Assembly (NCBI RefSeq): GCF_016722925.1 | Contig: NZ_JAEQNC010000009.1 | Location: forward strand, 186,001-250,000 | Length of the DNA stretch: 64,000 bases | Direction: 5' to 3' | Source of the DNA: Phytoamicus setariae | GTDB lineage: Bacteria > Pseudomonadota > Alphaproteobacteria > Rhizobiales > Rhizobiaceae | Part shown: positions 12,895-58,360 of the stretch, in pieces | Layout of the letters: each line of letters starts with the position of its first letter | How positions within the stretch are numbered: position 1 is the stretch's first letter | The notes under the pieces: generated by a model | Databases searched by the model: none | What the model was told of the DNA's origin: nothing | The model's input: the letters and a program-made list of their open reading frames with translations, nothing else | Made by a program: the position numbers and the translations under genes

Positions 12895-15800
12895 ATGAAC
12901 ACACAAGCCAACAAAACCCGGACCGACCTTTTTGCAGCGTTCGCGCCTGCAGTCCAGGCGCAGAGCGCGCTGCGCCAAACGATCACGGCAGCCTACCGAC
13001 GCGACGAGGCGGAATGCCTCAAGCCGCTGATCGAGGCTGCCACCGTCTCGCCGCGCCTGAGAGAAACCTCGGCAAGCACGGCCCGCAAGCTGATCGAGGC
13101 GCTGCGCGCCAAGCACAAGGGCTCGGGCGTCGAAGGACTGGTTCACGAATACTCCCTGTCGAGCCAGGAAGGCGTGGCGCTGATGTGTCTGGCTGAGGCG
13201 CTGCTGCGCATTCCCGACACCGAAACCCGCGACGCGCTGATCCGCGACAAGATCGCCGAAGGTGACTGGAAGTCCCATATCGGCGGCGGCAAGTCTCTGT
13301 TCGTCAATGCGGCGACCTGGGGTCTCGTGGTCACCGGCAAGTTGACCTCGACCGTCAACGACCGCAGCCTGTCGGCCGCGCTGACACGCCTGATCGCGCG
13401 GGCCGGCGAACCGGTCATCCGTCGCGGCGTCGACATGGCCATGCGCATGATGGGCGAGCAATTCGTCACCGGCGAGACCATCGACGAAGCGCTCCGCCGC
13501 TCCAAGGCCCTTGAGCAGAAGGGATTCCGCTATTCATACGACATGCTCGGCGAAGCCGCCACCACGGCCGCCGACGCCGAACGCTATTTCAAGGACTACG
13601 AGAACGCCATCCATGCCATCGGCAAGGCATCGGCCGGACGCGGCATCTATGAAGGACCGGGCATTTCCATCAAGCTTTCGGCGCTGCATCCCCGCTACGC
13701 GCGCTCGCAGGCCGATCGGGTGATGGGCGAATTGCTGCCGAAGGTCAAAGCACTCGCTCAGATCGCCAAGAGCTACGACATCGGCCTCAACATCGATGCC
13801 GAAGAAGCCGACCGTCTGGAAATCTCGCTCGATATCCTTGAAAGCCTGTGCCTCGACCGCGATCTGGCTGGTTGGAACGGTGTCGGCTTCGTCGTTCAGG
13901 CCTATGGCAAGCGCTGCCCCTTCGTGCTGGATTTTATCATCGATCTGGCGCGCCGGGCTAACCGCCGCATCATGGTCCGCCTGGTCAAGGGCGCCTATTG
14001 GGATGCGGAGATCAAGCGCGCCCAGCTCGACGGTCTGGAAAGCTTCCCGGTCTTCACCCGCAAGATCCATACCGACATTTCCTACATAGCCTGCGCCCGG
14101 AAGCTGCTCGCCGCGACCGACTTCGTCTTCCCGCAGTTCGCCACCCACAATGCCCAGACGCTCGCCTCAATCTACCATCTGGCCGGGAACGATTTCCAGG
14201 TCGGCAAGTACGAGTTCCAATGCCTGCATGGCATGGGCGAACCGCTCTATGACGAGGTCGTCGGCAAGGAAAATCTCGATCGCCCTTGCCGCATCTATGC
14301 GCCGGTCGGCACGCATGAAACGTTGCTCGCCTATCTCGTCCGCCGCCTGCTGGAAAACGGCGCGAACTCGTCCTTCGTCAATCGTATCGCCGATCCCAAG
14401 GTGTCGATCGACGAACTGGTGGCCGATCCCGTCGATCTGGCGCGCGCGCTGCCGGTGGTGGGTGCTGGCCATGACCAGATCGCGCTTCCGGCCAATATCT
14501 TCGGCGCCAACCGGACCAATTCGGCGGGCCTCGACCTGTCGAACGAAGTCACCCTCGAGGATCTTGCCGCGGCGTTGAGGGCCTCGACAACCATCGACTG
14601 GCATGCACGCACACAGTTGGCGACCGGACCCGTCACCCGCGCCGCGCGACCCGTGCTCAATCCGGGCGACCGCCGCGACACAGTCGGGATCGTCGAGGAG
14701 GCTTCCGACGACGATGCCAAGCAGGCCGTGCGGTTGGCCGCAGAAGCGACCGCAGGATGGGCCGGTGTCCAGCCATGGGACAGGGCCGCATGCCTCGATC
14801 GTGCAGCCGACATCATGCAGGGCCGCATCCAGACGCTGCTCGGGCTGATCATGCGCGAAGCCGGCAAGTCCGCTCCGAATGCAATCGCTGAAGTCCGCGA
14901 AGCGGTGGATTTCCTGCGCTATTATGCCGAACAGACCCGCCGCACGCTCGGCCCGGCTCACAAGCCGCTCGGCCCGGTGGTCTGCATCAGCCCGTGGAAC
15001 TTCCCGCTGGCGATCTTCACCGGACAGGTTGCGGCAGCGCTCGTCGCGGGCAACCCAGTCTTGGCCAAGCCCGCCGAAGAGACCCCGCTGATCGCCGCGG
15101 AAGCTGTGCGCATCCTGCATGAAGCCGGCATCCCGGCAAGCGCCCTGCAGTTCCTGCCTGGCGACGGCCGGGTTGGCGCAGCGCTGGTGGGTGCTGCGGA
15201 AACGGCCGGCGTGATGTTTACCGGCTCCACGGAAGTGGCGCGCCTCATCCAGGCGCAGCTCTCAGATCGGCTTTCCGCTACGGGCCGGCCGATCCCGCTG
15301 ATTGCCGAAACCGGCGGGCAAAATGCGATGATCGTCGATTCCTCTGCGCTTGCCGAACAGGTCGTCGGCGACGTGATCGCCTCGGCCTTCGACAGCGCCG
15401 GCCAGCGCTGCTCGGCGCTGCGCGTCCTCTGCCTACAGGACGATGTTGCCGACCGGACGCTGACCATGCTCAAGGGCGCTCTCAAGGAATTAAGCATCGG
15501 CCGCACCGACCGTCTGGCTGTTGACGTCGGCCCCGTCATCACCGACGAGGCCAAGGGCATCATCGAAAAGCACATCGATGCAATGCGCGGCCTCGGCCGC
15601 ACCGTCGAGCAGGTCGTCCTCGCCGGCGAAACGCAGGAGGGCACCTTCGTGCCGCCGACGATCATCGAACTCGACAAGCTTTCCGACCTGAAGCGCGAAG
15701 TCTTCGGCCCGGTCCTGCATGTGATCCGCTACAAGCGCGAAAACGTCGACCGCCTGATCGATGACATCAACGCGACCGGCTACGGACTGACCTTCGGCCT

Positions 15801-38507: not shown

Positions 38508-41500
38508 TCATGCTTTAAGGTCGCTGTACTTCATCATTGACCTCGAAAACAGTTCAGAGTCGCTGAAGCTATATTTGGCGTGTCTTTTCGGTTTAACATT
38601 ATTGATAGCGATCGGAATTTCCGCGCTGCGTGCGCTTTTCAGATGCTGCAGGCTGAGTTCGACGGCACGGCGGCTCGTCTTTGCCCATTGTACGACCATC
38701 AGCGTTCGTTCTGCCAGCGCAGTCAGATGCATCGTATCCGCCGAGGCGAGCACAGGCGCGCTGTCGAAGATAACGATTTGGCCCCTGGCGCGGGCCATCT
38801 CGATGATGTCAGCCACATCAGTCAAACGGGCGCGCCGATGGAGACTGGGATTGCCGGCCGGGATGAAATCGATACCGCTCGGATGGTGATGGATGACGTC
38901 CTCGATGCCAACCTGTCCACCCAGCACTTCGTTCAACCCATGCTTCAGCCCGGACTTGAAAAGCAAGTCGAGATGTCCGCGCCGAAGGTCGCCATCGACA
39001 AGCAGCACCGGGCTTCCGTTGGCAGCGAGTTCGATGGCCAGCGATCCGGCGACAAGCGACTTGCCTTCTCCGCAGTGCGCCGACGTGACGACAATACTGG
39101 TGGGCAACTTTCCGCCATTGGATTGCTTGAGCGAAATCATGACGGTGCGTATCGCTTCCTCAAACATCCCGCCTTGACTGCGCCCGAAGAGCAGCGACGG
39201 ATTTCTCCGGTCTTTTCTTCTCAGGCGCGGGATGAACCCGGCGGGCACGATGCGTGCTATTCCCGCCATCTGGTCGAAGCTACGGATCGTCTTGTCAAAC
39301 ATCTCAACCACGAAAGCGGCCGTTACCGCGATCGCAATCGAGCCCACCAGCGCACCAATCAGATAGAAAAGCCGTCCGCGCCCCTGTGGTCCGAGCGGCA
39401 CCGCAGCCGGGGACAGAACCTCCACTTCCGCTCCCGGCAGCAGGGCTTGCCCAGCCAGCGTCCGGCGCTGCGCCTCGAGCTTGTCCAGCGCCGTTTGCTC
39501 TTTGTCAACGATGCGCTGTAGTCGCGCCAACTCGATTTTTGCCAGCGCAGAGCGAGAACGCTGCTCATAGGCGGCCGACAGCGCGGAGCGGACTGTGCCG
39601 TCTTCACGATCAAGCGCCGCAAACCTGGCACGCATTGATTGGAGATATCGATCGACCGCAAGGCCGAGATCGGTGCGGGACTTATCGATCTTTGCGCGCA
39701 AGTCGACCACTGCTTCGGCGTCGTTGCCGTAGATCTCAAGAAGACGGTCGAGATCTTGCTGCTGGACACGAAGGTCGCGTTCCATCGCGCCAATGCTGTC
39801 GGGAATGAACTTGCTCTGAGCGGCAAGCGAAGCGTCATCCGCCGCTTCCAGAGCAGAAATCGTTTCCTTGACGTCAGCCCGGCTTTGTTCGATTTTTGTT
39901 TGCCGGTCGTTCAGCTCCGTGATCGACTTGATCTGTTTGCCCTGAGCGTCATCATCTGGGACGACGCGCATTGTTTCCTGATAGGTGTCGGCAGCATCGC
40001 GCGCGGCATTCGTGCGATCCTGCTGTTCGGCGATGCGCTGCCTGATCCATGCTTCCGCTGCGTCCACACTGCCACGGATACTGTCCTTGCGCTCTTCAAG
40101 GTAGATGTCGAGCAGCCGGTTCGGGACCGCCGCTGCCAGTTCGGGATCACTTGCATCGAATCCTATCTGAATGACGCCACCCTGGCCGTCGCGCCACACG
40201 CTAAGCGCCTTGTAATACTCCGGGAATATCGGCTCGACGCTGCTTCGGATCGGCGAGGACGGCTTTTGACCGCTGATCAGGCCGCGCAGCATGTCTCGGG
40301 CCTTGTCGACAAGCGAGGCTTTCCGCAGTGCCGGATTGAATTCCGGCCGTTCATCGAACCGCAGGTCGCGGATTACCCGCTCTGCGACGCTTCTGGAACG
40401 AAGCCGCTCAATCTCCGATCCGATGTCCAGCGAACCATTGCCGCCGGGATCCTCCGCGCTGAGCGTGGTCGCCAGAGGCCTGTGGATCATCAGCCGCGAC
40501 GCGGCATGATAGGTCGGCTTGAATCCCGAAATCACCGCAATCGCAGGCGCCATAAGCAGCATAGTGAGAACCACGATCATGCCGATCCTTCGCCAGATCA
40601 AGCGCAAGCCGGATGACAGATCTTCAGTTTCGGTGGGGAACCGGATCGCGAACATAATCACGGCAGTGGCGAACAACACGAATAGAAGACTATTCTGAAC
40701 CAGGATGATCGTTTCCGTGAGGTTCATCACCAGGAACATAATGACCAGCACGTTCGGCCACAGCCAACCTTCCTCAGGAGCTGCACACAGCAACATTGCG
40801 CCCTGACGCAGCGCACGGACAATGGTCCAGACCAGGAATACGAAGCCCACGAGGCCGAGGCCCAGCAATATGTCGCGAAATCCATTGTGGGCGTGCGGCG
40901 CCGGCCATCCCGCCGCCGCTCGGACGCCCCAGCCGGCGACGCTGGCGTCGGCCCAGAACGCCTGGTAGCCGTAACCGAGCAACAAGCGGCTTTCGATCGC
41001 GCGATCCACCTCGCGCCAGAGCGGAACACGACCGCTCAGCGTCGCGTCCTTGCCCATCGCTTCGAGCAGCGGTACGAGCAGTTCACTGAGACCGACAAGG
41101 ACCAGCGCCACTAATAGCAGACAAACCAACACGAGAGTCGCCCGTCCAAGGCCGCGGGCCTTTGATAGAGCCTGGAAGAACACAGTGGCCACTACAGCGC
41201 TGGCTGCAGATGTCATGGCGGTCATCGATTGGGAAGCGACGAGGCAGACGAGACTAGCGCACAGCAGCGGTATGCTGACGATTCTCAACCTGGATCGCCG
41301 ATCCGCTGCCATCACGCCGCAAGCGTAAGCGGCGATTGCAGCGTTCCACCCGAGCGCGTTCTTGTTGTCAAAGACACCCTTGAGGGCGCTATCGCCCACG
41401 CTGAAAGCACGACCGGGCAACGCCGCGGCCATCAGAAGGCTGAACAGCATGCCGGACCCGAGAACCAAAACCGTCAGCAACAGGAATTGCCGCGGCGTGA

Positions 41501-41885
41501 ACAGGATGGCTAGAAGGTATGCAAGCGATATTGTGAGAAGCAGCGCTACCGCCCGCTGGAGAGTGAGGGGGGGACTGGACGACCACAGCACCGAGACAAA
41601 CGGTAGAAGGAGGAGCACAACGAGCGGGAAGCTCCGGCGGATGGCGATCAGCAACTGCGACGGACGCCGGGCCAATAGTCCGAGCGAAATCGAGTAGATT
41701 GGTATGCCAAGCAGACGAAGGATCGCCATCTCCCTGGCATCCAAAGAGCCATCGGCATCGATCAGGGGAAAAACGCAACCGCTCAGAAGGAGCAATGCGA
41801 CAATGACACCGATGCACTCCAGCGACCGCCAAGGCAAGGCTATTTTGGGACCGCAGACTGCCGGATAGCAAGCCTTCTCGATCAT
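38508..41885 (-). CDS. Fusion: O-antigen polymerase/ligase-like membrane protein with Wzc/ExoP-type tyrosine autokinase
   Basis: This is a 1125-residue fused protein. Residues 1 to about 420 are a polytopic membrane protein of the Wzy/ExoQ/O-antigen-ligase type; the periplasmic loop segment PAPHAHNGFRDILLGLGLVG is the family hallmark. From about 425 (LSSGLRLIWRR) it continues as a complete polysaccharide co-polymerase. That part has a Wzz domain with two membrane spans, a coiled-coil region, and a bacterial tyrosine kinase with Walker A CGEGKS, Walker A' VLLVDGDLRRG and Walker B IVIFDSAP. Tyrosines lie near the C-terminus. These activities are normally separate proteins. The kinase half is nearly identical in DNA to the gene at 47054-49264. 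Confidence 0.85.
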   Translation of the reverse strand: MIEKACYPAVCGPKIALPWRSLECIGVIVALLLLSGCVFPLIDADGSLDAREMAILRLLGIPIYSISLGLLARRPSQLLIAIRRSFPLVVLLLLPFVSVLWSSSPPLTLQRAVALLLTISLAYLLAILFTPRQFLLLTVLVLGSGMLFSLLMAAALPGRAFSVGDSALKGVFDNKNALGWNAAIAAYACGVMAADRRSRLRIVSIPLLCASLVCLVASQSMTAMTSAASAVVATVFFQALSKARGLGRATLVLVCLLLVALVLVGLSELLVPLLEAMGKDATLSGRVPLWREVDRAIESRLLLGYGYQAFWADASVAGWGVRAAAGWPAPHAHNGFRDILLGLGLVGFVFLVWTIVRALRQGAMLLCAAPEEGWLWPNVLVIMFLVMNLTETIILVQNSLLFVLFATAVIMFAIRFPTETEDLSSGLRLIWRRIGMIVVLTMLLMAPAIAVISGFKPTYHAASRLMIHRPLATTLSAEDPGGNGSLDIGSEIERLRSRSVAERVIRDLRFDERPEFNPALRKASLVDKARDMLRGLISGQKPSSPIRSSVEPIFPEYYKALSVWRDGQGGVIQIGFDASDPELAAAVPNRLLDIYLEERKDSIRGSVDAAEAWIRQRIAEQQDRTNAARDAADTYQETMRVVPDDDAQGKQIKSITELNDRQTKIEQSRADVKETISALEAADDASLAAQSKFIPDSIGAMERDLRVQQQDLDRLLEIYGNDAEAVVDLRAKIDKSRTDLGLAVDRYLQSMRARFAALDREDGTVRSALSAAYEQRSRSALAKIELARLQRIVDKEQTALDKLEAQRRTLAGQALLPGAEVEVLSPAAVPLGPQGRGRLFYLIGALVGSIAIAVTAAFVVEMFDKTIRSFDQMAGIARIVPAGFIPRLRRKDRRNPSLLFGRSQGGMFEEAIRTVMISLKQSNGGKLPTSIVVTSAHCGEGKSLVAGSLAIELAANGSPVLLVDGDLRRGHLDLLFKSGLKHGLNEVLGGQVGIEDVIHHHPSGIDFIPAGNPSLHRRARLTDVADIIEMARARGQIVIFDSAPVLASADTMHLTALAERTLMVVQWAKTSRRAVELSLQHLKSARSAEIPIAINNVKPKRHAKYSFSDSELFSRSMMKYSDLKA
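38526..40622. repeat. Long direct repeat, copy 1 (autokinase coding block)
   Basis: This 2097-base block matches 47072-49168 at a constant offset of 8546. I saw only isolated substitutions (for example at 40563, and two near the left end at 38541-38552). Outside the edges the sequences diverge sharply, although the last codons still encode similar residues. This fits recent duplication or gene conversion. Confidence 0.93.
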
Positions 41886-41886
41886 T

Positions 41887-43074
41887 TCACTCTGCCGGAT
41901 ATTGGCTGCTCAACTGGTTTTCCGGAGCTCGTGCGCTCGTGACCGCTGAACTCGAGACGAGGCCGGCCCTACGCAGAGAGCTCGCGCTGGCGGGCGCGTC
42001 ACGCCGCACCCGATCGGCAACGACGTCGCCGGCCGCCCCTGCCGCGGGTCGGCCAGTTATACGCTCCACCAGGTACAACGGCCGTTGCCGGACCTCGATC
42101 GCGATGCGGCCAACATACTCGCCGAGAAGCCCCACGGAGATCATATTGAACGCGCCGAACACTAAGATAACGACCATCATTGACGCGTAGCCGGGCGCAT
42201 CGATTCCGAATATCAGGGTACGCCCAATGATGATGGCTGCATAGAGCTGGGCCAGAAAGACGACAACAAGGCCGACATAAGTCCAGATCCGCAGCGGCAT
42301 CGTCGTCGATCCAGTGATCCCGTCCAAGGCGAAGTTCCACAATCGCCAGTATACCCACTTCGAGGTACCCGCCATGCGTTTTGGCCGGTCGTACTCTACC
42401 GTCGCCTGAGTGAAGCCAACCCAGGAGAACAGCCCCTTCATAAAGCGGATACGCTCTGGCATGCCGTTCAGAACGTCAACGACGCTCCGATCCAGCAGCC
42501 GGAAATCGCCGACATTGTCTTGAATGGGATAGTCGGCGAGCCGGTTGTAGAGACCGTAGAAGGCTGTGGCCGTCCAGCGCTTGAGCCAATTGTCACTGCG
42601 ACGCATCTTCCGGCGAGCATTGACCACCTTTGCGCCGCGCAGCCAGGCGCTCACCATATCCGGAACGATCTCCGGCGGATCCTGCAGGTCAACGTCCATC
42701 GGTATGATTGCGTCGCCGCAAGCATGGGCTAAACCAGCTGCCAGCGCCGCGTCTTTGCCAAAGTTCCGCGACAGACAAATCAGGCCGATATCCGATCGCT
42801 CCGCCACGAGGCTTCCGATGATCGCCACAGTGCGATCACTGCTGCCGTCGTCGACGAACAGAACCTCTAACCGCCCGCCTGGTCCCAGAGCGGTGTGGAT
42901 CGCTGCGGTCTGTGCATCCAGAGCCTCCAGAAAGAGCACGATCGTCTCCTCCTCATTGAACACCGGCACAACGATACTCAACGCTAAGCCTTCCGTTCCG
43001 GGTATGCAGCGGGGCGACAGGTCAGCAGTGGCAAGTGGCCAAGTGTGAGGGAACTCAGTGCTACGGGTCAACAT
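41887..43074 (-). CDS. GtrB/DPM1-like family 2 glycosyltransferase
   Basis: This 395-residue enzyme transfers a sugar to polyprenyl phosphate at the membrane. The GT2 domain has LSIVVPVFNEEETI, VLFVDDGSSDRT and the DxD-like motif MDVDLQDPPE. Two membrane segments (IWTYVGLVVVFLAQLYAAII and MMVVILVFGAFNMISVGLLG) follow, as in GtrB and YfdG/YfdH systems. A GtrA-like remnant lies upstream on the same strand. The stop is 1 base before the fusion gene start, so the two are co-transcribed. The C-terminal 60 residues are not part of the usual family length. Confidence 0.85.
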   Translation of the reverse strand: MLTRSTEFPHTWPLATADLSPRCIPGTEGLALSIVVPVFNEEETIVLFLEALDAQTAAIHTALGPGGRLEVLFVDDGSSDRTVAIIGSLVAERSDIGLICLSRNFGKDAALAAGLAHACGDAIIPMDVDLQDPPEIVPDMVSAWLRGAKVVNARRKMRRSDNWLKRWTATAFYGLYNRLADYPIQDNVGDFRLLDRSVVDVLNGMPERIRFMKGLFSWVGFTQATVEYDRPKRMAGTSKWVYWRLWNFALDGITGSTTMPLRIWTYVGLVVVFLAQLYAAIIIGRTLIFGIDAPGYASMMVVILVFGAFNMISVGLLGEYVGRIAIEVRQRPLYLVERITGRPAAGAAGDVVADRVRRDAPASASSLRRAGLVSSSAVTSARAPENQLSSQYPAE

Positions 43075-43123
43075 GTTATGTCCCCAATGCGACGAAACAA
43101 GCTGGACCGCGCGCCAGCTACCG

Positions 43124-43351
43124 CTAAACGGGCTGTCCCTGCGAGTGTGCGAGCATGTAGTCCCGACAGAACACGAAGAAGACGGTGGAGTATACGATCG
43201 TTGCCATGGTCTGGGTCGCTACTGCGCCGACCCATTCGAGCCCGACGAGCGTCTGCGGAACCGGAATAGCACCAAATCCGATTAGCGTATTTGCCGCAGC
43301 AACCAGGCCACCGTGCGTACGTTGTTTGAGGAAGCCGCCCGATCTGATCAC
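43124..43351 (-). pseudogene. Possible truncated GtrA-like flippase
   Basis: This is a 75-codon frame with two hydrophobic segments (GGLVAAANTLIGFGAIPV and ATQTMATIVYSTVFFVF) that resembles the first half of GtrA. GtrA proteins are about 120 residues with four spans, so this would be truncated. It lies 49 bases upstream of the GtrB-like gene, the usual gtrA-gtrB order. Identification rests on weak similarity and position. The rest of the interval 43075-43647 shows no gene. Confidence 0.3.
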
Positions 43352-43647
43352 TGCTTACAATAGTTTTACTCTTGACCATCCCCGGCTCCATCCAACCTGC
43401 CGAACTGGCAAGCCCCAAGGCGAAACGAGCTTCCCCGACATCTCCGTCAGCTATGACACGCAAACCTCTGTAGAGACGAACTTTATTCTTTATGCTGGCC
43501 GCTCGAAAGCGAGCCATAAGACGTACGCATACCGCTTTGTGCTGGTTGTTGCTCGAACGGAGAACACGCTAGTCTTAGCGCTGGTCGATGCCGGGATAGG
43601 CTAGTCACCGGCCAGGCGTTGGGCACGGTTTTGGGACTTGTACGCGG

Positions 43648-45240
43648 ATGGGTATATCTAACCTCAAGCTAGCACTCGGCGCGGAGATGCCAGGGCCCTT
43701 GGGTCCGGGCAAGGAACCAGGATCGTCCTGGCGGGCGTCACGCCCGTTGTTGCGGCATTTCTCTCTGTGGCTCACGATGGTCGCTACTTTGGTGGCCCTT
43801 TGCACAGCGATCAGCGGGCAGAGCTACTGGATAGACGAGGCCAATTCAGCATGGCGCGCGGCGGAGCCGCGCTTCGGACTGTTCGTGAGCCGTATGGTAT
43901 CGGAGACTGGCTCTGATGCGCAAATGCCGTTGTTCCTCATAGCGATCTGGGCCTGGGAAAAAGTCGTAGGTGCCGGCGAGGTTGCGCTCAGAGCGATGAA
44001 CCTGCTTTGGCTCATTCCGGGCCTCTACATCTTCGCCAACGGTCGCGTGGACCGCCTTCTTGTGGCCGGCACCAGTGCCTTCCTGTGGTACTATCTTGAT
44101 GAGGCACGGCCGTACGGCATGCAGATCGGGGCGAGCCTGATGGTTTTTGGCCTACTAGAGCGTGCAGTCGTTGCGGCGCGTGATCCCGGCGGAGAGTATA
44201 CGCTCCTTCGCCCCTACCAGGTCTGGCTCCTCGCGTTTGGACTCATTGCCCTTGCGGGAAGCAGCCTGCTCGGAGCGATATGGGCTGGCGCGGCGATTGC
44301 GGCCGCAGCGTTAGCCGTGCCCTGGCGCGCTCGCCTACTCGCCGCCAGCCACGTCATCGGGCCGGCGATTCTACTCGTGGCCGTGTTGGCCCCGCTCGGG
44401 CTCTACTATCTCTGGACAGTGCTCGCGGGGGCCGGCGGCACCAAAGTGGCGGCAACCGACGCACAGAACCTGGTGTTCTCGGCCTACGAACTGCTGGGTT
44501 TCGCTGGCCTCGGCCCGGGCCGCATAGATCTGCGCGCACTGGAGAGCGCGGTCTTCTCGCCCTACCTATTCGCGCTGGCCAGCTACGCCGTCTTAGTCGG
44601 GACCGTGACGCTGGCCGGCACGATCCACACAGTGCGCAATGTTACGCCTCGGACGCTGACAGCTTGCGCGATCGCGTTCACGGCTGCCGCTGCATTGATC
44701 CTGATCGCCGGACACCTGATGCACTGGCGGGTGGTCGGTCGCCACCTCGCGCCTGCACTTGCCCCCGTGCTGGCGGTGCAGGCGGCTGGTGTGACGCTGC
44801 TCTGGCGTCAGCCTATCGGCAAGTTCCTGGTGCTTGGCTTTCTGGTGATGGCATTGGCCTCTGCCGCGAGCATCAGATTTGCGCCACGACACGCGAAGGA
44901 CGACTACCGCTCAGCGGCCGCCGTCGTACGGTCGGCCCTCGCTGAGGGTGACCGCGTCTGGTGGAGCGCAGACGCCCTTAGCGCGCTCGTTTACCAAGTG
45001 CCGCTGGGACAAGGGTGCACCGGTGCCCTGTACGTTTACGAGCCGCAGCCGGGCTTCGCTTCGGCGCTTGAGGCTCCAACCCTTGTCGTCACCAGCAAGC
45101 CGGACATCTACGATCCGGGCGGGGTACTGGCCGCGTTCCTGTCCGACCAGCATTTTCGCATCACCGAAACCTTCCAGGCCTTCCAGATCTGGCGGCGCAC
45201 GCCACCGGCGGGCCCTGTACCCTGCAGCCCGGGTAAGTGA
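43648..45240 (+). CDS. GT39/ArnT-like polytopic glycosyltransferase
   Basis: This is a 530-residue membrane protein with about ten hydrophobic segments. Near residue 60 is YWIDEANSAWRA, with the acidic pair typical of the first periplasmic loop of GT-C enzymes (GT39/GT83). DEARPYGMQ near residue 150 is also usual in this group. A soluble C-terminal domain (about 430-530) follows. It probably transfers a sugar from a polyprenyl-phosphate donor. It reads opposite to the flanking kinase genes and is followed by a methyltransferase and GtrA. Confidence 0.75.
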   Translation: MGISNLKLALGAEMPGPLGPGKEPGSSWRASRPLLRHFSLWLTMVATLVALCTAISGQSYWIDEANSAWRAAEPRFGLFVSRMVSETGSDAQMPLFLIAIWAWEKVVGAGEVALRAMNLLWLIPGLYIFANGRVDRLLVAGTSAFLWYYLDEARPYGMQIGASLMVFGLLERAVVAARDPGGEYTLLRPYQVWLLAFGLIALAGSSLLGAIWAGAAIAAAALAVPWRARLLAASHVIGPAILLVAVLAPLGLYYLWTVLAGAGGTKVAATDAQNLVFSAYELLGFAGLGPGRIDLRALESAVFSPYLFALASYAVLVGTVTLAGTIHTVRNVTPRTLTACAIAFTAAAALILIAGHLMHWRVVGRHLAPALAPVLAVQAAGVTLLWRQPIGKFLVLGFLVMALASAASIRFAPRHAKDDYRSAAAVVRSALAEGDRVWWSADALSALVYQVPLGQGCTGALYVYEPQPGFASALEAPTLVVTSKPDIYDPGGVLAAFLSDQHFRITETFQAFQIWRRTPPAGPVPCSPGK

Positions 45241-45310
45241 ATGGATGCGTCTACAACGAGTCGAAGTGACTCATCTACATCGTACGCAAATTTTACACGG
45301 ATCAGAGACA

Positions 45311-46042
45311 ATGGAACAAACCGCTTACCGAGAAATGGCCGCCACAGAGCAGGCCCACTGGTGGTTTCTGGCGCGCAGGAAGATTATCGCGGACACTATC
45401 AAGAGCTTTAATTTGCCGCCCCACTCCAAGATCCTCGAAGTTGGCGCCGGTACTGGCGGGAATCTCAAGCTGCTTCAGCGATTTGGTGATCTCAGCGCTG
45501 TTGAGATGGATGACTATGCGAGAGCCTATGCGACCCAAGTCAGTGGCGTTGGCGTCGAGTACGGCTTGTTGCCGAACTCGCTTCCTACTTTTCCTCATAA
45601 TTTCCAATTGATCTGCATGTTTGATGTTCTTGAGCATGTAGAGAAGGATTTCGAGTCTTTGAAGGTGCTTGCCACACGATTGAATCCCGGCGGTCGCATT
45701 CTGATTACAGTTCCCGCATATCCGTGGATGTGGACTGATCATGATGCCGTTTTACACCATCACCGGCGTTATACGAGAACAACCCTCTCCAACGTTATAA
45801 ATCGCGCGGGGCTTCAGCTGGATCGGCTGACCAATTTCAATACATTGCTGTTCCCTGCTGCGATAGCTGCGAGGTTGGTCGGGAACGCACTCGGAAAAAA
45901 GGGATCGCCAGGAAGCAGCTTACCGCCACGATTTGTTAATTCCGCCTTCGAAACCATTTTTAAGTCAGAAGCACCGATGCTGCGCAGGCTTAATCTCCCC
46001 TTTGGACTTTCGTTGATGGCGGTTGCTTCAAACTATGCCTAA
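45311..46042 (+). CDS. Class I SAM-dependent methyltransferase
   Basis: This is a 243-residue enzyme with the SAM-binding motif ILEVGAGTGGNLKLL near residue 40, the acidic motif SAVEMDD, and motif LICMFDVLEHVEKD. The pattern MEQTAYREMAATEQAHWWF is common in methyltransferases encoded with polyprenyl-glycan genes. Start ATG 45311. The next gene begins inside its last codons. The substrate may be a lipid-linked sugar; this is inference from neighbours. Confidence 0.82.
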   Translation: MEQTAYREMAATEQAHWWFLARRKIIADTIKSFNLPPHSKILEVGAGTGGNLKLLQRFGDLSAVEMDDYARAYATQVSGVGVEYGLLPNSLPTFPHNFQLICMFDVLEHVEKDFESLKVLATRLNPGGRILITVPAYPWMWTDHDAVLHHHRRYTRTTLSNVINRAGLQLDRLTNFNTLLFPAAIAARLVGNALGKKGSPGSSLPPRFVNSAFETIFKSEAPMLRRLNLPFGLSLMAVASNYA

Positions 46043-46397
46043 GCGTCTGATAAAGTTTACAATTTCTGGCGCTTGTGCGACTGGTATTCATGTCGTAATA
46101 GCTTGGGTGTTGATCGAACACTACGCCACAGATCCGGCATTTGCCAACGGTATCGCATTTTTGATAGCCACGTCCTTCTCCTGGGTCGCAAACACACTCT
46201 GGACATTCGATGCTTCCTTGGGGTGGGCCAATGTTAAGCGTTTTGCCATAGCAACGAGTTTCATGCTTTTGATTAGTATGTCCATTGCAAAATCAATAGA
46301 TTTAGCGGGTTTTCCTGGGTATCTCGGAATATTCTGTGTCGTCATTGCTCTGCCAGCAATTACCTTCGTTGTGCACAATAACTGGACTTACAAATAA
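46035..46397 (+). CDS. GtrA-family membrane protein
   Basis: This is a 120-residue protein with four membrane spans (IKFTISGACATGIHVVIAWV; ANGIAFLIATSFSWVANTLW; FAIATSFMLLISMSIAKSI; YLGIFCVVIALPAITFVV). Length and the N-terminal PKRLIKFTISG match GtrA, the flippase for polyprenyl-phosphate-linked glucose-type donors. ATG 46035 overlaps the methyltransferase stop. It may serve the GtrB-like enzyme at 41887 or the GT39-like enzyme upstream. Confidence 0.85.
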   Translation: MPKRLIKFTISGACATGIHVVIAWVLIEHYATDPAFANGIAFLIATSFSWVANTLWTFDASLGWANVKRFAIATSFMLLISMSIAKSIDLAGFPGYLGIFCVVIALPAITFVVHNNWTYK

Positions 46398-47053: not shown

Positions 47054-49264
47054 TCATTTTTTAATATCGTGGTACTTCATCATTGACTTCGAAAATAGTT
47101 CAGAGTCGCTGAAGCTATATTTGGCGTGTCTTTTCGGTTTAACATTATTGATAGCGATCGGAATTTCCGCGCTGCGTGCGCTTTTCAGATGCTGCAGGCT
47201 GAGTTCGACGGCACGGCGGCTCGTCTTTGCCCATTGTACGACCATCAGCGTTCGTTCTGCCAGCGCAGTCAGATGCATCGTATCCGCCGAGGCGAGCACA
47301 GGCGCGCTGTCGAAGATAACGATTTGGCCCCTGGCGCGGGCCATCTCGATGATGTCAGCCACATCAGTCAAACGGGCGCGCCGATGGAGACTGGGATTGC
47401 CGGCCGGGATGAAATCGATACCGCTCGGATGGTGATGGATGACGTCCTCGATGCCAACCTGTCCACCCAGCACTTCGTTCAACCCATGCTTCAGCCCGGA
47501 CTTGAAAAGCAAGTCGAGATGTCCGCGCCGAAGGTCGCCATCGACAAGCAGCACCGGGCTTCCGTTGGCAGCGAGTTCGATGGCCAGCGATCCGGCGACA
47601 AGCGACTTGCCTTCTCCGCAGTGCGCCGACGTGACGACAATACTGGTGGGCAACTTTCCGCCATTGGATTGCTTGAGCGAAATCATGACGGTGCGTATCG
47701 CTTCCTCAAACATCCCGCCTTGACTGCGCCCGAAGAGCAGCGACGGATTTCTCCGGTCTTTTCTTCTCAGGCGCGGGATGAACCCGGCGGGCACGATGCG
47801 TGCTATTCCCGCCATCTGGTCGAAGCTACGGATCGTCTTGTCAAACATCTCAACCACGAAAGCGGCCGTTACCGCGATCGCAATCGAGCCCACCAGCGCA
47901 CCAATCAGATAGAAAAGCCGTCCGCGCCCCTGTGGTCCGAGCGGCACCGCAGCCGGGGACAGAACCTCCACTTCCGCTCCCGGCAGCAGGGCTTGCCCAG
48001 CCAGCGTCCGGCGCTGCGCCTCGAGCTTGTCCAGCGCCGTTTGCTCTTTGTCAACGATGCGCTGTAGTCGCGCCAACTCGATTTTTGCCAGCGCAGAGCG
48101 AGAACGCTGCTCATAGGCGGCCGACAGCGCGGAGCGGACTGTGCCGTCTTCACGATCAAGCGCCGCAAACCTGGCACGCATTGATTGGAGATATCGATCG
48201 ACCGCAAGGCCGAGATCGGTGCGGGACTTATCGATCTTTGCGCGCAAGTCGACCACTGCTTCGGCGTCGTTGCCGTAGATCTCAAGAAGACGGTCGAGAT
48301 CTTGCTGCTGGACACGAAGGTCGCGTTCCATCGCGCCAATGCTGTCGGGAATGAACTTGCTCTGAGCGGCAAGCGAAGCGTCATCCGCCGCTTCCAGAGC
48401 AGAAATCGTTTCCTTGACGTCAGCCCGGCTTTGTTCGATTTTTGTTTGCCGGTCGTTCAGCTCCGTGATCGACTTGATCTGTTTGCCCTGAGCGTCATCA
48501 TCTGGGACGACGCGCATTGTTTCCTGATAGGTGTCGGCAGCATCGCGCGCGGCATTCGTGCGATCCTGCTGTTCGGCGATGCGCTGCCTGATCCATGCTT
48601 CCGCTGCGTCCACACTGCCACGGATACTGTCCTTGCGCTCTTCAAGGTAGATGTCGAGCAGCCGGTTCGGGACCGCCGCTGCCAGTTCGGGATCACTTGC
48701 ATCGAATCCTATCTGAATGACGCCACCCTGGCCGTCGCGCCACACGCTAAGCGCCTTGTAATACTCCGGGAATATCGGCTCGACGCTGCTTCGGATCGGC
48801 GAGGACGGCTTTTGACCGCTGATCAGGCCGCGCAGCATGTCTCGGGCCTTGTCGACAAGCGAGGCTTTCCGCAGTGCCGGATTGAATTCCGGCCGTTCAT
48901 CGAACCGCAGGTCGCGGATTACCCGCTCTGCGACGCTTCTGGAACGAAGCCGCTCAATCTCCGATCCGATGTCCAGCGAACCATTGCCGCCGGGATCCTC
49001 CGCGCTGAGCGTGGTCGCCAGAGGCCTGTGGATCATCAGCCGCGACGCGGCATGATAGGTCGGCTTGAATCCCGAAATCACCGCAATCGCAGGCGCCATA
49101 AGCAGCATGGTGAGAACCACGATCATGCCGATCCTTCGCCAGATGAGGCGCAAGCCGGATGACAGATCAAGGTCGTCCGATTTAGCCTCTATCTGAAACC
49201 GTGGTTCATAGCGTATCGGCGAGAGCGAGACGTTGCGGTCTGGAGGAACAGTTGAAATTGTCAT
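47054..49264 (-). CDS. Wzc/ExoP-type polysaccharide co-polymerase and tyrosine autokinase
   Basis: This 736-residue inner-membrane protein controls polymer length and export. After a short cytoplasmic lead (residues 1-35) come the first membrane span (RIGMIVVLTMLLMAPAIAVI), a periplasmic Wzz region with coiled coils, a second span (LIGALVGSIAIAVTAAFVV) and the cytoplasmic kinase. The kinase has Walker A CGEGKS, A' VLLVDGDLRRG and B IVIFDSAPV. Tyrosines lie near the end (KYSFSDSE and KYHDIKK). The stop lies at 47054-47056, and ATG 49264 overlaps the downstream glycosyltransferase context by 4 bases. From about residue 35 on it duplicates the kinase half of the fusion gene at 38508. Confidence 0.92.
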   Translation of the reverse strand: MTISTVPPDRNVSLSPIRYEPRFQIEAKSDDLDLSSGLRLIWRRIGMIVVLTMLLMAPAIAVISGFKPTYHAASRLMIHRPLATTLSAEDPGGNGSLDIGSEIERLRSRSVAERVIRDLRFDERPEFNPALRKASLVDKARDMLRGLISGQKPSSPIRSSVEPIFPEYYKALSVWRDGQGGVIQIGFDASDPELAAAVPNRLLDIYLEERKDSIRGSVDAAEAWIRQRIAEQQDRTNAARDAADTYQETMRVVPDDDAQGKQIKSITELNDRQTKIEQSRADVKETISALEAADDASLAAQSKFIPDSIGAMERDLRVQQQDLDRLLEIYGNDAEAVVDLRAKIDKSRTDLGLAVDRYLQSMRARFAALDREDGTVRSALSAAYEQRSRSALAKIELARLQRIVDKEQTALDKLEAQRRTLAGQALLPGAEVEVLSPAAVPLGPQGRGRLFYLIGALVGSIAIAVTAAFVVEMFDKTIRSFDQMAGIARIVPAGFIPRLRRKDRRNPSLLFGRSQGGMFEEAIRTVMISLKQSNGGKLPTSIVVTSAHCGEGKSLVAGSLAIELAANGSPVLLVDGDLRRGHLDLLFKSGLKHGLNEVLGGQVGIEDVIHHHPSGIDFIPAGNPSLHRRARLTDVADIIEMARARGQIVIFDSAPVLASADTMHLTALAERTLMVVQWAKTSRRAVELSLQHLKSARSAEIPIAINNVKPKRHAKYSFSDSELFSKSMMKYHDIKK
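47072..49168. repeat. Long direct repeat, copy 2 (autokinase coding block)
   Basis: This is the partner of 38526-40622, with offset 8546 throughout and only a few substitutions seen. Recombination between the copies would delete or duplicate the intervening 6.4 kb, which carries the polymerase-like half, GtrB and the GT39/methyltransferase/GtrA genes. Confidence 0.93.
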
Positions 49265-50403
49265 GGTGTACTCTCCGTCGCTTGAGGTTGCGCGGAGACG
49301 GCTTCGTAGAGCTTTTCCAGCGATCGCATGTATGCCTTCATACTGAAATGGTTGAGATAGTGGGCGCGGCCTTTGGCCGAGAGGCGGTTCCGGATTTCCG
49401 GATCGCTGACCAGTTTCGCCAACGCTGCCGCCAGAGCATCTTTGTCTCCGACTGGTACGAAGAGACCGGTTTCGCCGTCGGAAATGGCTTCCTCATGCGC
49501 GCCAACGCGGGTGGTAACGACCGCGAGTCCATGGGAAAGACCTTCGATCACCGCCATTGCCATGCCTTCGGCATGTGAAGGCAAGACCAGGATATCTGCG
49601 CTAGCACACAAGGCTCGCGCCGCATCCGCGTCGAGCCAGCCCGGCATCTCCACCAGATCGGAAAGAGCCATGGCTGCAGCCTGGCGTTGGTAATCCTCTA
49701 CAGGTCCGTCGCCCGCCAGTACGGCGCGCCACTGGAGCACTTTCATGATCGGATGGCTTAGCGCGAGCAGAAGTTCTGTTACGCCTTTGCGTTCGCTCAG
49801 ACGACCGAGAAAGACGATCAACGGCGTCCCGCCGGCAGGAACGTCGCGCAAACCGGGATCGGGCACGCAATTGTGGACGACGACGATCCGACGCTCGTCC
49901 ACGCCCAGAAGCGTCGTTAGCGTCGTGCGATCGCGCTGACCCAGCGCCACGACGCAGTCGGCATGCTGAAACATCCGGCGTATAAGCATTTGTTGACGTG
50001 GCGAGCGTGCAGCAAAGTCGCTTGCATAGTCATAATCGTGCAGGTGCAAGATGTGGTGGCAGCCAAGGACGCGGGCAACCTTCGTCAAGATCAGCTTTCG
50101 TGCGGTGCTGCCGCGACCCGCGATATGGATATGGTGAATGCGTTCGGGCGCAACGATCCGATCCATTGCCATTGCCAAAACGGATCCCAGCAGGCGCACA
50201 AGGGATGTCGGCACGAACCATCGAGGTCCTCTGGTGTCGGTGACGAGGTGTTTCCGGCCAGCCGCCTTTGCCGTGCTTGTTATATAGCCGACCAACCTGC
50301 CAATACCGCCACCATTCTCACAACCGCCCGGGACATAGTGGCGGACGGTTGCTACGTTCTGCGTCGCTATCCGATCTCCATCCATGAACGCCTTTATGCG
50401 CAT
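49261..50403 (-). CDS. Family 4 glycosyltransferase
   Basis: This is a 380-residue GT-B fold enzyme. The C-terminal nucleotide-sugar site has VFLGRLSERKGVTELLLAL, and the EX7E motif is in SHAEGMAMAVIEGLSHG. The N-terminal acceptor domain has YVPGGCENGGGIGRLVGY. It overlaps the autokinase start by 4 bases and the upstream glycosyltransferase stop by 10 bases, so these genes are one transcript. It adds a sugar to the lipid-linked repeat unit; donor and linkage are unknown. Confidence 0.88.
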   Translation of the reverse strand: MRIKAFMDGDRIATQNVATVRHYVPGGCENGGGIGRLVGYITSTAKAAGRKHLVTDTRGPRWFVPTSLVRLLGSVLAMAMDRIVAPERIHHIHIAGRGSTARKLILTKVARVLGCHHILHLHDYDYASDFAARSPRQQMLIRRMFQHADCVVALGQRDRTTLTTLLGVDERRIVVVHNCVPDPGLRDVPAGGTPLIVFLGRLSERKGVTELLLALSHPIMKVLQWRAVLAGDGPVEDYQRQAAAMALSDLVEMPGWLDADAARALCASADILVLPSHAEGMAMAVIEGLSHGLAVVTTRVGAHEEAISDGETGLFVPVGDKDALAAALAKLVSDPEIRNRLSAKGRAHYLNHFSMKAYMRSLEKLYEAVSAQPQATESTP

Positions 50404-52550: not shown

Positions 52551-53147
52551 TCAACCTGCGGGGTCGATGAAGAGCGAAACATCGAGGATATCTCCGGGCA
52601 GAATTTCCGTTTTCATGTTCGGTTTTGTCGTCTCTTCGCGGCCAGCCACCGATCGGTAGATCACGGCGACCGGCTCAGCCAACTTGCCGACCGCCTGGAC
52701 AGAAGCACCAGCATTCGGAATCTCCGCCGACAGAGCACCCAGTTCCTCGGCCAGGCCAGCGCCTCCGGCGAGCAGAAGTGCATGGCGAACGGTGAGGCCA
52801 GGCTCATATTCGACCACGCCCGGCCGGTACTTGGCGATTTGGACCAGAACTGTCGGCGACTTGAGGATATCGTGTTTGATGAGTTTTTCCTGGACGCGCG
52901 CGCGCACCGTATCGAGCTGCAGTCCGGCAACCCGGATGCTGCTAAGGTGCGGCAACACGATATTGCCCGCCAGATCGACCTTGCTGTCGCCACCGAGCTT
53001 TGGAGCCTCCGTGATGGCGTTATGCAATGTATCCCCTCGCTCGATCAGCGTCTCCCCTAGCGCTGGTGTGGTCACAGCCAACCAGGCCACAACCAGTGAC
53101 GTCCCCGTCATGATGCGTGCGGAACCCGCACGATGAAGTGGAACCAT
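52551..53147 (-). CDS. Compact polysaccharide export protein (Wza/ExoF-like)
   Basis: This 198-residue protein has a signal-like N-terminus (MTGTSLVVAWLAVTTPALGE). It holds a shortened export domain (SKVDLAGNIVLPHLSSIRVA, then LQLDTVRARVQEKL) and an SLBB-like part (GVVEYEPGLTVRHALLLAGG). It ends in MKTEILPGDILDVSLF. ExoF-type proteins are about 400 residues, so this is about half length. A gap seems to lie between YRP and GVVEYEPG, where family members have the first SLBB strand. Start ATG 53147 has AAGGGGTAGGA upstream. It may be functional in reduced form, or in decay. Confidence 0.65.
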   Translation of the reverse strand: MVPLHRAGSARIMTGTSLVVAWLAVTTPALGETLIERGDTLHNAITEAPKLGGDSKVDLAGNIVLPHLSSIRVAGLQLDTVRARVQEKLIKHDILKSPTVLVQIAKYRPGVVEYEPGLTVRHALLLAGGAGLAEELGALSAEIPNAGASVQAVGKLAEPVAVIYRSVAGREETTKPNMKTEILPGDILDVSLFIDPAG

Positions 53148-53510
53148 AGAAATCCTACCCCTTCCAAGCGTCAACTACGGACAATCAGCCTGCGCTGGAG
53201 CCATTATCAATTTCAGCGGAAAGCACCTACGGTCAGCGTGACGTCCTTCGCGGTGTGCATTCCACGCGGCATACAATTCACGTTACTTTACCGCCTAACG
53301 GACACGCGAAATACCTGCTCTTATGGGCAATCCTGTAGACCCGACTACCCGCTCTTTGGGGGGGCGCCCCCAACGACTTAGATACGACAACGTCATTTGA
53401 TGGTGGTAGGCGCGTTAGAAGTAACCCCGCCTTCTATTGCTTGTTGTACTGCGGATGTCCGGATAATCGTTTCTCGGCACAACTGCGCCCCCTTGATCCT
53501 GCCATGGCGC
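53134..53510. repeat. Promoter-region repeat, copy A
   Basis: This segment, the upstream region and first codons of the export gene, is clearly related to 54513-54985. Shared stretches include GAACCAT around both start codons, GGACACGCGAAATACCTGCT versus GGACACGCGCAACACCTGCT, a CTTTGGGGG run, GCGCGTTAGAAGTA, and GGATAATCGTTTCTCGGCAC. Identity is patchy with small insertions, so the repeat is older than the kinase duplication. Confidence 0.8.
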
Positions 53511-56860: not shown

Positions 56861-58360
56861 ATGGCTTCATTCGCGCCGTCAGCAGTAAAATCCGGCCGGT
56901 CAAAGGCCAGCGCCTCAAATGGTGTGTCGGCGCGGACGATTCCGCCAAACTCGGTCCCACCTTTGACCCCTCCGGAACCAACCGCCAAGCTCAGCGAGCA
57001 GCAGGAACTGAGGATATCGGGCCTACTAAAACGCCACTTCTCGCGGCTGGCTACGTCGTCACTCTTGATTGCCGGCGACATCATTGCCTATTTGGCGGCT
57101 TATTTCCTTCTCCTGCATATTCTTCCGGTCGGAGGGGACAGCACGGTTATGGTGCGTGTTTTCGCCCTCGCGGCAGTGGCTGCCTTGTTTCTTTATGCAT
57201 CGAAAGCGCTCTATCCAGGATACAGGCTTCACAATCACGAGCACTTGCGCCGGCGCACGATAGCTTCCGTCAAAGTGGCGGCCCTTGCAGTGCTTGTTGT
57301 GGTTTTCCTGCCGGAAGCGTCTGGGCTGCTGCTTGCCACTGTTGCCTTCCTTGCCCTGGGACTGATTATTCAGCCCGTCATGCATTGGGTTGCACGGGGC
57401 CTGTGCCGGAAACTTGGAATCTGGGGAGAACGGGCGGTAATCATAGCGCGTCGCAATCGCATCCCCGCGCTCATGACATATTTCACCGAGCACTGGCAGT
57501 ACGGCATTCGGCCAGAACCCTTTTCACCCGATGCTCGGGAAATATCCTCAGAAAACCCGGCATCGATTGCCTTGATAGCCGGGGATACGGGGCCTCTAAG
57601 CGCCGAGTTGGCGACAATGCGTCAAAAGTTCGCCGAAGTCATTCTTCTGTGCGACACGCCGAACTTCAAAATAACCGGATTGCGGCCTGCGGACGTAGGC
57701 GGAGAGATCGGCATTCGCTTGGCCGCAAGCAGGAGCTCGACAAACTCGAACATGGTACGACGGGCCGTCGATCTCGCGATCGCGATCCCTGCGACGCTAC
57801 TGGCTACACCATTTATTCTTGTTGCGGCAGCCGCGATCTATGCCATCGATCCCGGTCCCGTTTTCTTCAGGCATGCCAGGGAAGGTTTGGCGGGCAAGCC
57901 GGTCCACGTCCTGAAACTGAGAACAATGTACAGGGATGCGGAACAGCGCCTCGAAGCGTTGTTCCGGGAAAATCCGGCCATACAGAACGAGTGGACCACG
58001 CACTTCAAGCTTCGGCAGGATCCGCGCGTCCTGCCTGTGATCGGGAATCTTCTTCGTTCGACAAGTTTCGACGAACTCCCGCAATTGGCGAACATCATAG
58101 CGGGGGAAATGGCAATCGTCGGACCGCGCCCTTTTCCGGAATACCACCTCCTGGCGATGGATGGCGAGTTTCGCGACAAGCGGCGTTCGGTGACGCCGGG
58201 ACTTACAGGCCTCTGGCAGATATCCGAACGAAGCGATGCGGATATCTGCCTGCAGCAACAACTTGACGAGTTCTACATCGACAACAGGTCATTGTGGTTC
58301 GACTGGCATATCCTCCTGAGCACAATTCCAGCGGCCTTCAAGCGCAATGGAGCTTACTAG
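56861..58360 (+). CDS. Undecaprenyl-phosphate sugar-1-phosphate transferase (ExoY/WbaP type)
   Basis: This is a 499-residue membrane enzyme that starts the repeat unit by moving a hexose-1-phosphate onto undecaprenyl phosphate. Four membrane spans occupy about residues 65-185. A nucleotide-binding-like domain follows. The catalytic polyprenyl-phosphate transferase domain starts near 295 (VRRAVDLAIAIPATLLATPF) and contains HVLKLRTMYRDAEQRL and GRPFPEYH-like GPRPFPEYH. The end SLWFDWHILLSTIPAAFK is standard. The sugar may be glucose or galactose. Confidence 0.9.
   Translation: MASFAPSAVKSGRSKASASNGVSARTIPPNSVPPLTPPEPTAKLSEQQELRISGLLKRHFSRLATSSLLIAGDIIAYLAAYFLLLHILPVGGDSTVMVRVFALAAVAALFLYASKALYPGYRLHNHEHLRRRTIASVKVAALAVLVVVFLPEASGLLLATVAFLALGLIIQPVMHWVARGLCRKLGIWGERAVIIARRNRIPALMTYFTEHWQYGIRPEPFSPDAREISSENPASIALIAGDTGPLSAELATMRQKFAEVILLCDTPNFKITGLRPADVGGEIGIRLAASRSSTNSNMVRRAVDLAIAIPATLLATPFILVAAAAIYAIDPGPVFFRHAREGLAGKPVHVLKLRTMYRDAEQRLEALFRENPAIQNEWTTHFKLRQDPRVLPVIGNLLRSTSFDELPQLANIIAGEMAIVGPRPFPEYHLLAMDGEFRDKRRSVTPGLTGLWQISERSDADICLQQQLDEFYIDNRSLWFDWHILLSTIPAAFKRNGAY

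Follow-up and report, generated by a model that had tools for sequence, protein, structure and literature searches.

A single gene in which a probable Wzy-type polymerase is joined in frame to a Wzc-type co-polymerase (PCP) was found in the window, the 64,000-nt stretch of Phytoamicus setariae DNA analysed here, and the same junction is present in eight other genomes. Comparison of these sequences indicates one old fusion, the PCP half of which has since been repeatedly homogenised with a free twin encoded nearby. How Wzy and PCP cooperate in setting chain length is unsettled, and a natural covalent Wzy-PCP protein constrains the position of the polymerase relative to the ring. The fused and free pair in soil rhizobia moreover provides a ready natural test of stoichiometry and mixed rings, whilst the homogenisation of the PCP within each genome is a clear case of concerted evolution with one copy inside a fused protein.

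The fusion gene occupies positions 38508-41885 on the minus strand as a single open frame of 1125 codons. An earlier note on this DNA, which named no strand, had described an in-frame fusion with a polymerase-like half at residues 1-420, and had named a stop between the halves as the observation that would speak against it; we searched the window for such a stop and found none, and the first half was placed at residues 1-421 (40623-41885). This half scored 54.5 bits against Wzy_C (PF04932, residues 209-351), over the curated cut-off of 31.7, and in a fold search with an AlphaFold2 model residues 17-417 matched the WaaL-like membrane fold (7tpg, Z 19.1, rmsd 5.5, 358 residues aligned). On our reading the model has 12 membrane helices here, and an APHAHNG signature is retained, as it is in nine relatives. 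The second half (residues 422-1125, 38508-40622), defined by comparison with the free copy and by fold, matched the Wzc fold (7nhr, Z 31.2, 496 residues aligned) and has hydrophobic segments at 434-452 and 842-860, corresponding to the two Wzc membrane helices. Pfam scores for this half were lower: Wzz (PF02706, residues 422-508) reached 21.3 bits against a cut-off of 25.5, which the free twin passed with 26.5, and AAA_31 (residues 931-1083) reached 25.6 bits, just below its cut-off of 27. For the whole fusion, modelled as a monomer, the mean pLDDT was 81 and the pTM 0.57.

As the fold search cannot separate polymerases from ligases, we relied on the locus, with its PCP, export protein and flippase-family gene, to assign the first half, which is likely to be a polymerase rather than a ligase. 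The second half had been described as a tyrosine autokinase, a label that needs correction. Its translation contains SAHCGEGKS, VLLVDGDLR and IVIFDSAP, which we take to be the Walker A, A' and B motifs, respectively. Absent, however, is the C-terminal tyrosine cluster of BY-kinases, only two tyrosines being present in the last 28 residues. As such, autokinase activity should not be assumed from the sequence, particularly as PCP-2 systems with pseudokinases are described in the accessible part of one report (PMC12004946).

A free and complete PCP gene of 736 codons lies at 47054-49264 on the minus strand. The fused half corresponds to its codons 33-736, and thus lacks the start and first 32 residues of the free protein. 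The two copies have 2115 bp in common, with 11 differences, all confined to the outermost 60 bases at one end and 43 at the other. Between these, gapless comparison (offset 8546) reveals a perfectly identical direct repeat of 2012 bp (38551-40562 and 47097-49108, both minus strand), which we regard as a homogenised tract. As claimed in the earlier note, the junction coincides with the edge of the repeated stretch, at the boundary of codons 421 and 422 (40622/40623).

A perfect repeat of this length within a 37-contig assembly is the kind of sequence from which an assembly artefact might be expected, and an artefact or a chance read-through is therefore one explanation of the open frame. We regard this as scarcely credible, given that the junction is read through in seven other assemblies as well as in a closed plasmid (CP091033.1), and that DNA identity among the four fusions of full length is 78-96%. 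The closed plasmid is p1 of Sinorhizobium sp. B11. Among 72,556 plasmid records searched with tblastn, 424 had a match, and this was the one in which at least 80% of the fusion was covered. Its layout is that of the window, with a 737-residue free PCP, later a glycosyltransferase of family GT2 and then the fusion. The latter is annotated as a 923-residue O-antigen ligase, its first part having been split off by a frame break at a run of T near codon 171 (L037 near 15515). L060 has a closely similar Wzy half with an unbroken frame. The break in the T-run could be a sequencing slip or could reflect phase variation.

The search for further Wzy-Wzc fusions that had been proposed thus yielded eight genomes with the same junction. 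Using aligned Wzy halves as the query in a scan of genome contigs, we identified 91 relatives, and of the 80 loci analysed from these, seven carry the fusion (L057-L063). Two are complete, in Rhizobium sp. BK196 (L057) and R. mesosinicum HU56 (L059), each encoding 1145 residues; together with the window and B11, in the last case with the single frame break, this gives four end-to-end fusions. The remaining five, in four AFS isolates (L058, L060, L061 and L062) and in Rhizobium sp. P32RR-XVIII (L063), continue through the junction for 8-103 PCP residues before their contigs end. The motif FPTExxxLxSGLRL, or a near-identical form of it, marks the junction in all nine. The other end of each AFS contig also lies inside a PCP, containing the last 42-150 bp of one, and we infer from these paired boundaries that a near-identical repeat broke the short-read assemblies. 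Complete free twins were seen in the window, BK196, HU56 and B11, the AFS contigs end inside PCP copies, and P32RR-XVIII retains a tail only. In the latter, unrelated sequence precedes the last ~119 bp of a PCP, and the free PCP region looks rearranged; by eye, positions 1-1120 of L063, to the left of the fusion operon, resemble the end of a fucose synthase gene and part of a serine recombinase gene ahead of this tail. At the other 73 loci wzy stands alone, its frame ending 2-27 residues after the wzy match; one of these is frame-broken (L115) and one begins inside the gene (L122).

In order to reconstruct the history of the two halves we built two trees, one from the protein sequences of 29 Wzy halves (including 20 of the 73 standalone Wzys, selected by us) and one from the DNA of 18 PCPs (including ten selected from standalone loci). 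All nine fused Wzy halves formed one clade with support of 100/100. The PCPs followed another pattern, fused and free copies pairing by genome in all four genomes in which both are complete. After removal of the long-branched PCP of L079, a single clade of the four fused PCPs was rejected (p-AU 3.0e-45), whilst a clade of all eight PCPs from these four genomes was not (p-AU 0.283). Over the aligned stretch, fused and free PCPs were 99.5% identical in the window, 99.0% in BK196, 99.1% in HU56 and 99.4% in B11; between genomes, DNA identity was 77-95% for the free PCPs. Synonymous distances gave the same picture, with within-genome dS of 0.0077 (window), 0.028 (BK196) and 0.021 (HU56) against 0.12-0.86 between genomes. 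In three of the broken assemblies, overlapping fused and free 5' ends were 96-98% identical over 136-304 bases.

The shared junction, the single Wzy clade and the pairing of the PCP halves by genome together point to one old fusion followed by repeated homogenisation with the free twin. As near-identity arose separately in four genomes, the present repeat did not create the fusion. This runs counter to the proposal in the earlier note that both were products of the same recombination, which the presence of the junction in eight other genomes, the one Wzy clade and the per-genome identity of the PCPs do not bear out. A recent one-off fusion is ruled out by the common junction and the Wzy clade. 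We also considered that the PCP had been re-duplicated independently in each genome. This is disfavoured by a 3' tail of ~20 residues found on the fused PCPs of BK196 and HU56 (L057 and L059, each at 13373-13438) and of B11 (L037 18377-18442), which neither their free copies nor the window fusion possess. Homogenisation may have proceeded by gene conversion rather than by crossing-over. Horizontal replacement of the whole PCP allele in the window lineage is suggested by the tree; with the fusion-genome PCP clade at the p-AU given above, we make no such claim.

Pairwise dN/dS of the Wzy half was 0.09-0.25, indicating purifying selection (28 pairs from eight sequences; as the B11 fusion is frame-broken, its free PCP was the one B11 sequence in these analyses). 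A search of the eight other fusion genomes as wholes (E-value 1e-12), and of p1 in the case of B11, revealed no standalone wzy that was both close and intact; two of the eight also carry distant Wzys of 28-30% identity. The window genome has three Wzy_C genes, the other two of which (on contigs C12 and C35) are each accompanied, within ~5 kb, by a separate PCP gene. Outside the window it also contains a remnant of a wzy 3' end matching residues 355-418 (L005 1438-1728; C37 near 111950-112141), and an ancestral standalone wzy therefore seems to have been lost from this genome. Adjoining the remnant is a gene that resembles, by comparison with annotated neighbours, the right-handed beta-helix gene found beside wzy in Rhizobium standalone loci. 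P32RR-XVIII has both the fusion and the frame-broken standalone wzy (L115 5476-6731).

We next considered what the fused protein might do. The count of twelve helices would place the C-terminal end of Wzy in the cytoplasm, on the same side as the N-terminal end of the PCP, so that one protein would run from the Wzy C-terminus through a linker of ~16 residues (416-433 in the AlphaFold2 model) into the first PCP membrane helix. The fused protein may well act as the polymerase for the exopolysaccharide made by the locus, with its PCP half entering a ring together with free PCP subunits at about one tethered Wzy to several free PCPs. Such a mixed ring would fit a published complex of ~8 WzzE to one WzyE, with Wzy inside the membrane lumen of the ring (according to the part of PMC10030265 available), although that ratio is for a PCP-1 and not for a kinase-bearing PCP. 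The available text of a study of R. leguminosarum (PMC4182512) adds that PssP and PssP2 form heterocomplexes and, citing earlier work, that the Wzy protein PssT could no longer interact with PssP once its C-terminal part was lost. That Wzy is tethered to one PCP subunit in a mixed ring is the reading towards which we lean slightly, and it is plausible that the covalent link couples chain growth to length control. Several points weigh against the tethered-Wzy reading: direct repeats separated by a few kb may evolve in concert without selection, the B11 fusion is frame-broken near codon 171, internal initiation or proteolysis could part the halves, and complete free twins were seen in four of the nine genomes, the PCP tail of P32RR-XVIII following unrelated sequence. 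Recombination between the repeats, whether by gene conversion or by crossing-over, would keep both PCP halves interchangeable. More tentatively, and with some doubt on our side, the polymerase-to-ring ratio could be encoded covalently in the genome, one PCP gene bearing the polymerase and its twin lacking it, and conversion be a selected device for the compatibility of the subunits, so that mixed rings would form around roughly one polymerase.

Were the halves made as separate proteins from an internal start, or to end as such through proteolysis, the fusion would be genetic only. Just past the junction the window has an in-frame ATG with an AAGGA 5 bases ahead of it, as might be expected of an internal start. 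The arrangement is not conserved, however: among the eight fusions that reach this site (L062 ends earlier) the AAGGA recurs in L063 alone, where a TTG follows it. Furthermore, initiation at this position would drop the charged residues ahead of PCP membrane helix 1, and the fused copy lacks the start and N-terminal codons of the PCP itself. Separate products are thus, in our judgement, quite improbable.

Compared with known systems, the fusion resembles PCP-2a proteins of the Wzc type (Wzc, ExoP and PssP) in its Wzc fold and, with Pfam scores below the cut-offs, in its Wzz region and P-loop kinase domain, but has a Wzy polymerase in place of their N-terminal tail and no C-terminal tyrosine cluster; the accessible text of PMC4182512 describes PssP as likewise without this cluster. 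With the Wzy_C family (Wzy, ExoQ and WaaL) it shares PF04932, the WaaL fold (7tpg) and the APHAHNG signature. Members of that family are normally separate proteins, and in the fusion the last ~20 residues of the rhizobial standalone proteins are replaced by the PCP. The non-covalent WzyE-WzzE complex, as presented in the portion of PMC10030265 available, involves the same two types of partner, whereas here the link is covalent and a free PCP twin is present. In the portions of the literature on Wzy, Wzz/Wzc and fusion that were accessible, we found no report of a natural Wzy-PCP fusion, and likewise nothing on this locus in the accessible gene-conversion literature. Among the matches listed for 394 genomes of the family, 385 of the class and 398 of the phylum, none beyond the window genome, which is counted in each sample, showed a further fusion; this is a weak survey, as 2-3 candidates were scored per genome and the other known fusion genomes are missing from the same matches. 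At thirteen loci with long frames, we saw no more than one hydrophobic segment ahead of PCP membrane helix 1 in any long PCP frame, and where the long frame was of the Wzy type it was extended in front rather than behind.

The surrounding genes bear on how the fusion may have arisen. Directly upstream, and likely in one operon with it, is a gene for a GT2 of the PgfS/GtrB-like type (41887-43074, minus strand), which also precedes the fusion in all six further fusion loci taken into the comparison (a set without L061 and L062) and was unmatched in the three standalone-wzy loci compared. On the plus strand there follow a membrane protein (43648-45240), possibly a GT-C glycosyltransferase, that matched nothing in Pfam (E-value 1e-5) or NCBIfam (1e-3), and a GtrA-type flippase (46023-46397). 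The cargo between the two PCP copies is thus the GT2, the possible GT-C protein and wzy, with GtrA in the window and L063. Beyond the free PCP, profile searches identified a GT4 gene overlapping its start by 4 bases (49261-50403, minus strand), a Wza-like polysaccharide export (OPX) protein (52551-53174, minus strand) and an initiating sugar transferase (Bac_transf; 56861-58360, plus strand). A flippase-family gene is found 4.4 kb past the window (C37:254417), and together with the export protein and initiating transferase it appears to fit a Wzx/Wzy pathway.

From this gene order, the fusion most likely originated when a segment with an alternative wzy beside PCP sequence entered the PCP gene by a single crossover, so that one side kept an intact PCP and the other gained wzy joined to a 5'-truncated PCP. 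As the main alternative to a selected mixed ring, the fusion might be a tolerated scar of a polymer-variant cassette, carrying Wzy and side-chain glycosylation genes, with repeats that homogenise passively and between which recombination could excise the cassette to leave one intact PCP. The position of the cargo between the free and fused PCPs is in keeping with this, as is the repeat in the window, identical except towards its two ends; where wzy stands alone in an annotated locus, gmd and fcl (L038) or fcl (L040) come immediately after the PCP. Nevertheless, a cassette alone would leave the open fused frame and the purifying selection on the Wzy half unexplained, and as the full account we consider it rather unlikely, though a fusion that functions would be consistent with it. 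The standalone arrangement closest in order is the pRL9-type locus of Rhizobium johnstonii (standalone wzy plus GT2-GT4-GT4-PCP-gmd-fcl), which matches the window up to the PCP (73% identical) and differs in having one PCP and a separate, divergently oriented wzy of ~45% identity. In B11, gmd and fcl come after the fusion. The GtrA, PgfS/GtrB-like GT2 and large membrane protein at 41887-46397 resemble a three-part side-chain glycosylation module, which recombination between the PCP repeats would excise along with Wzy.
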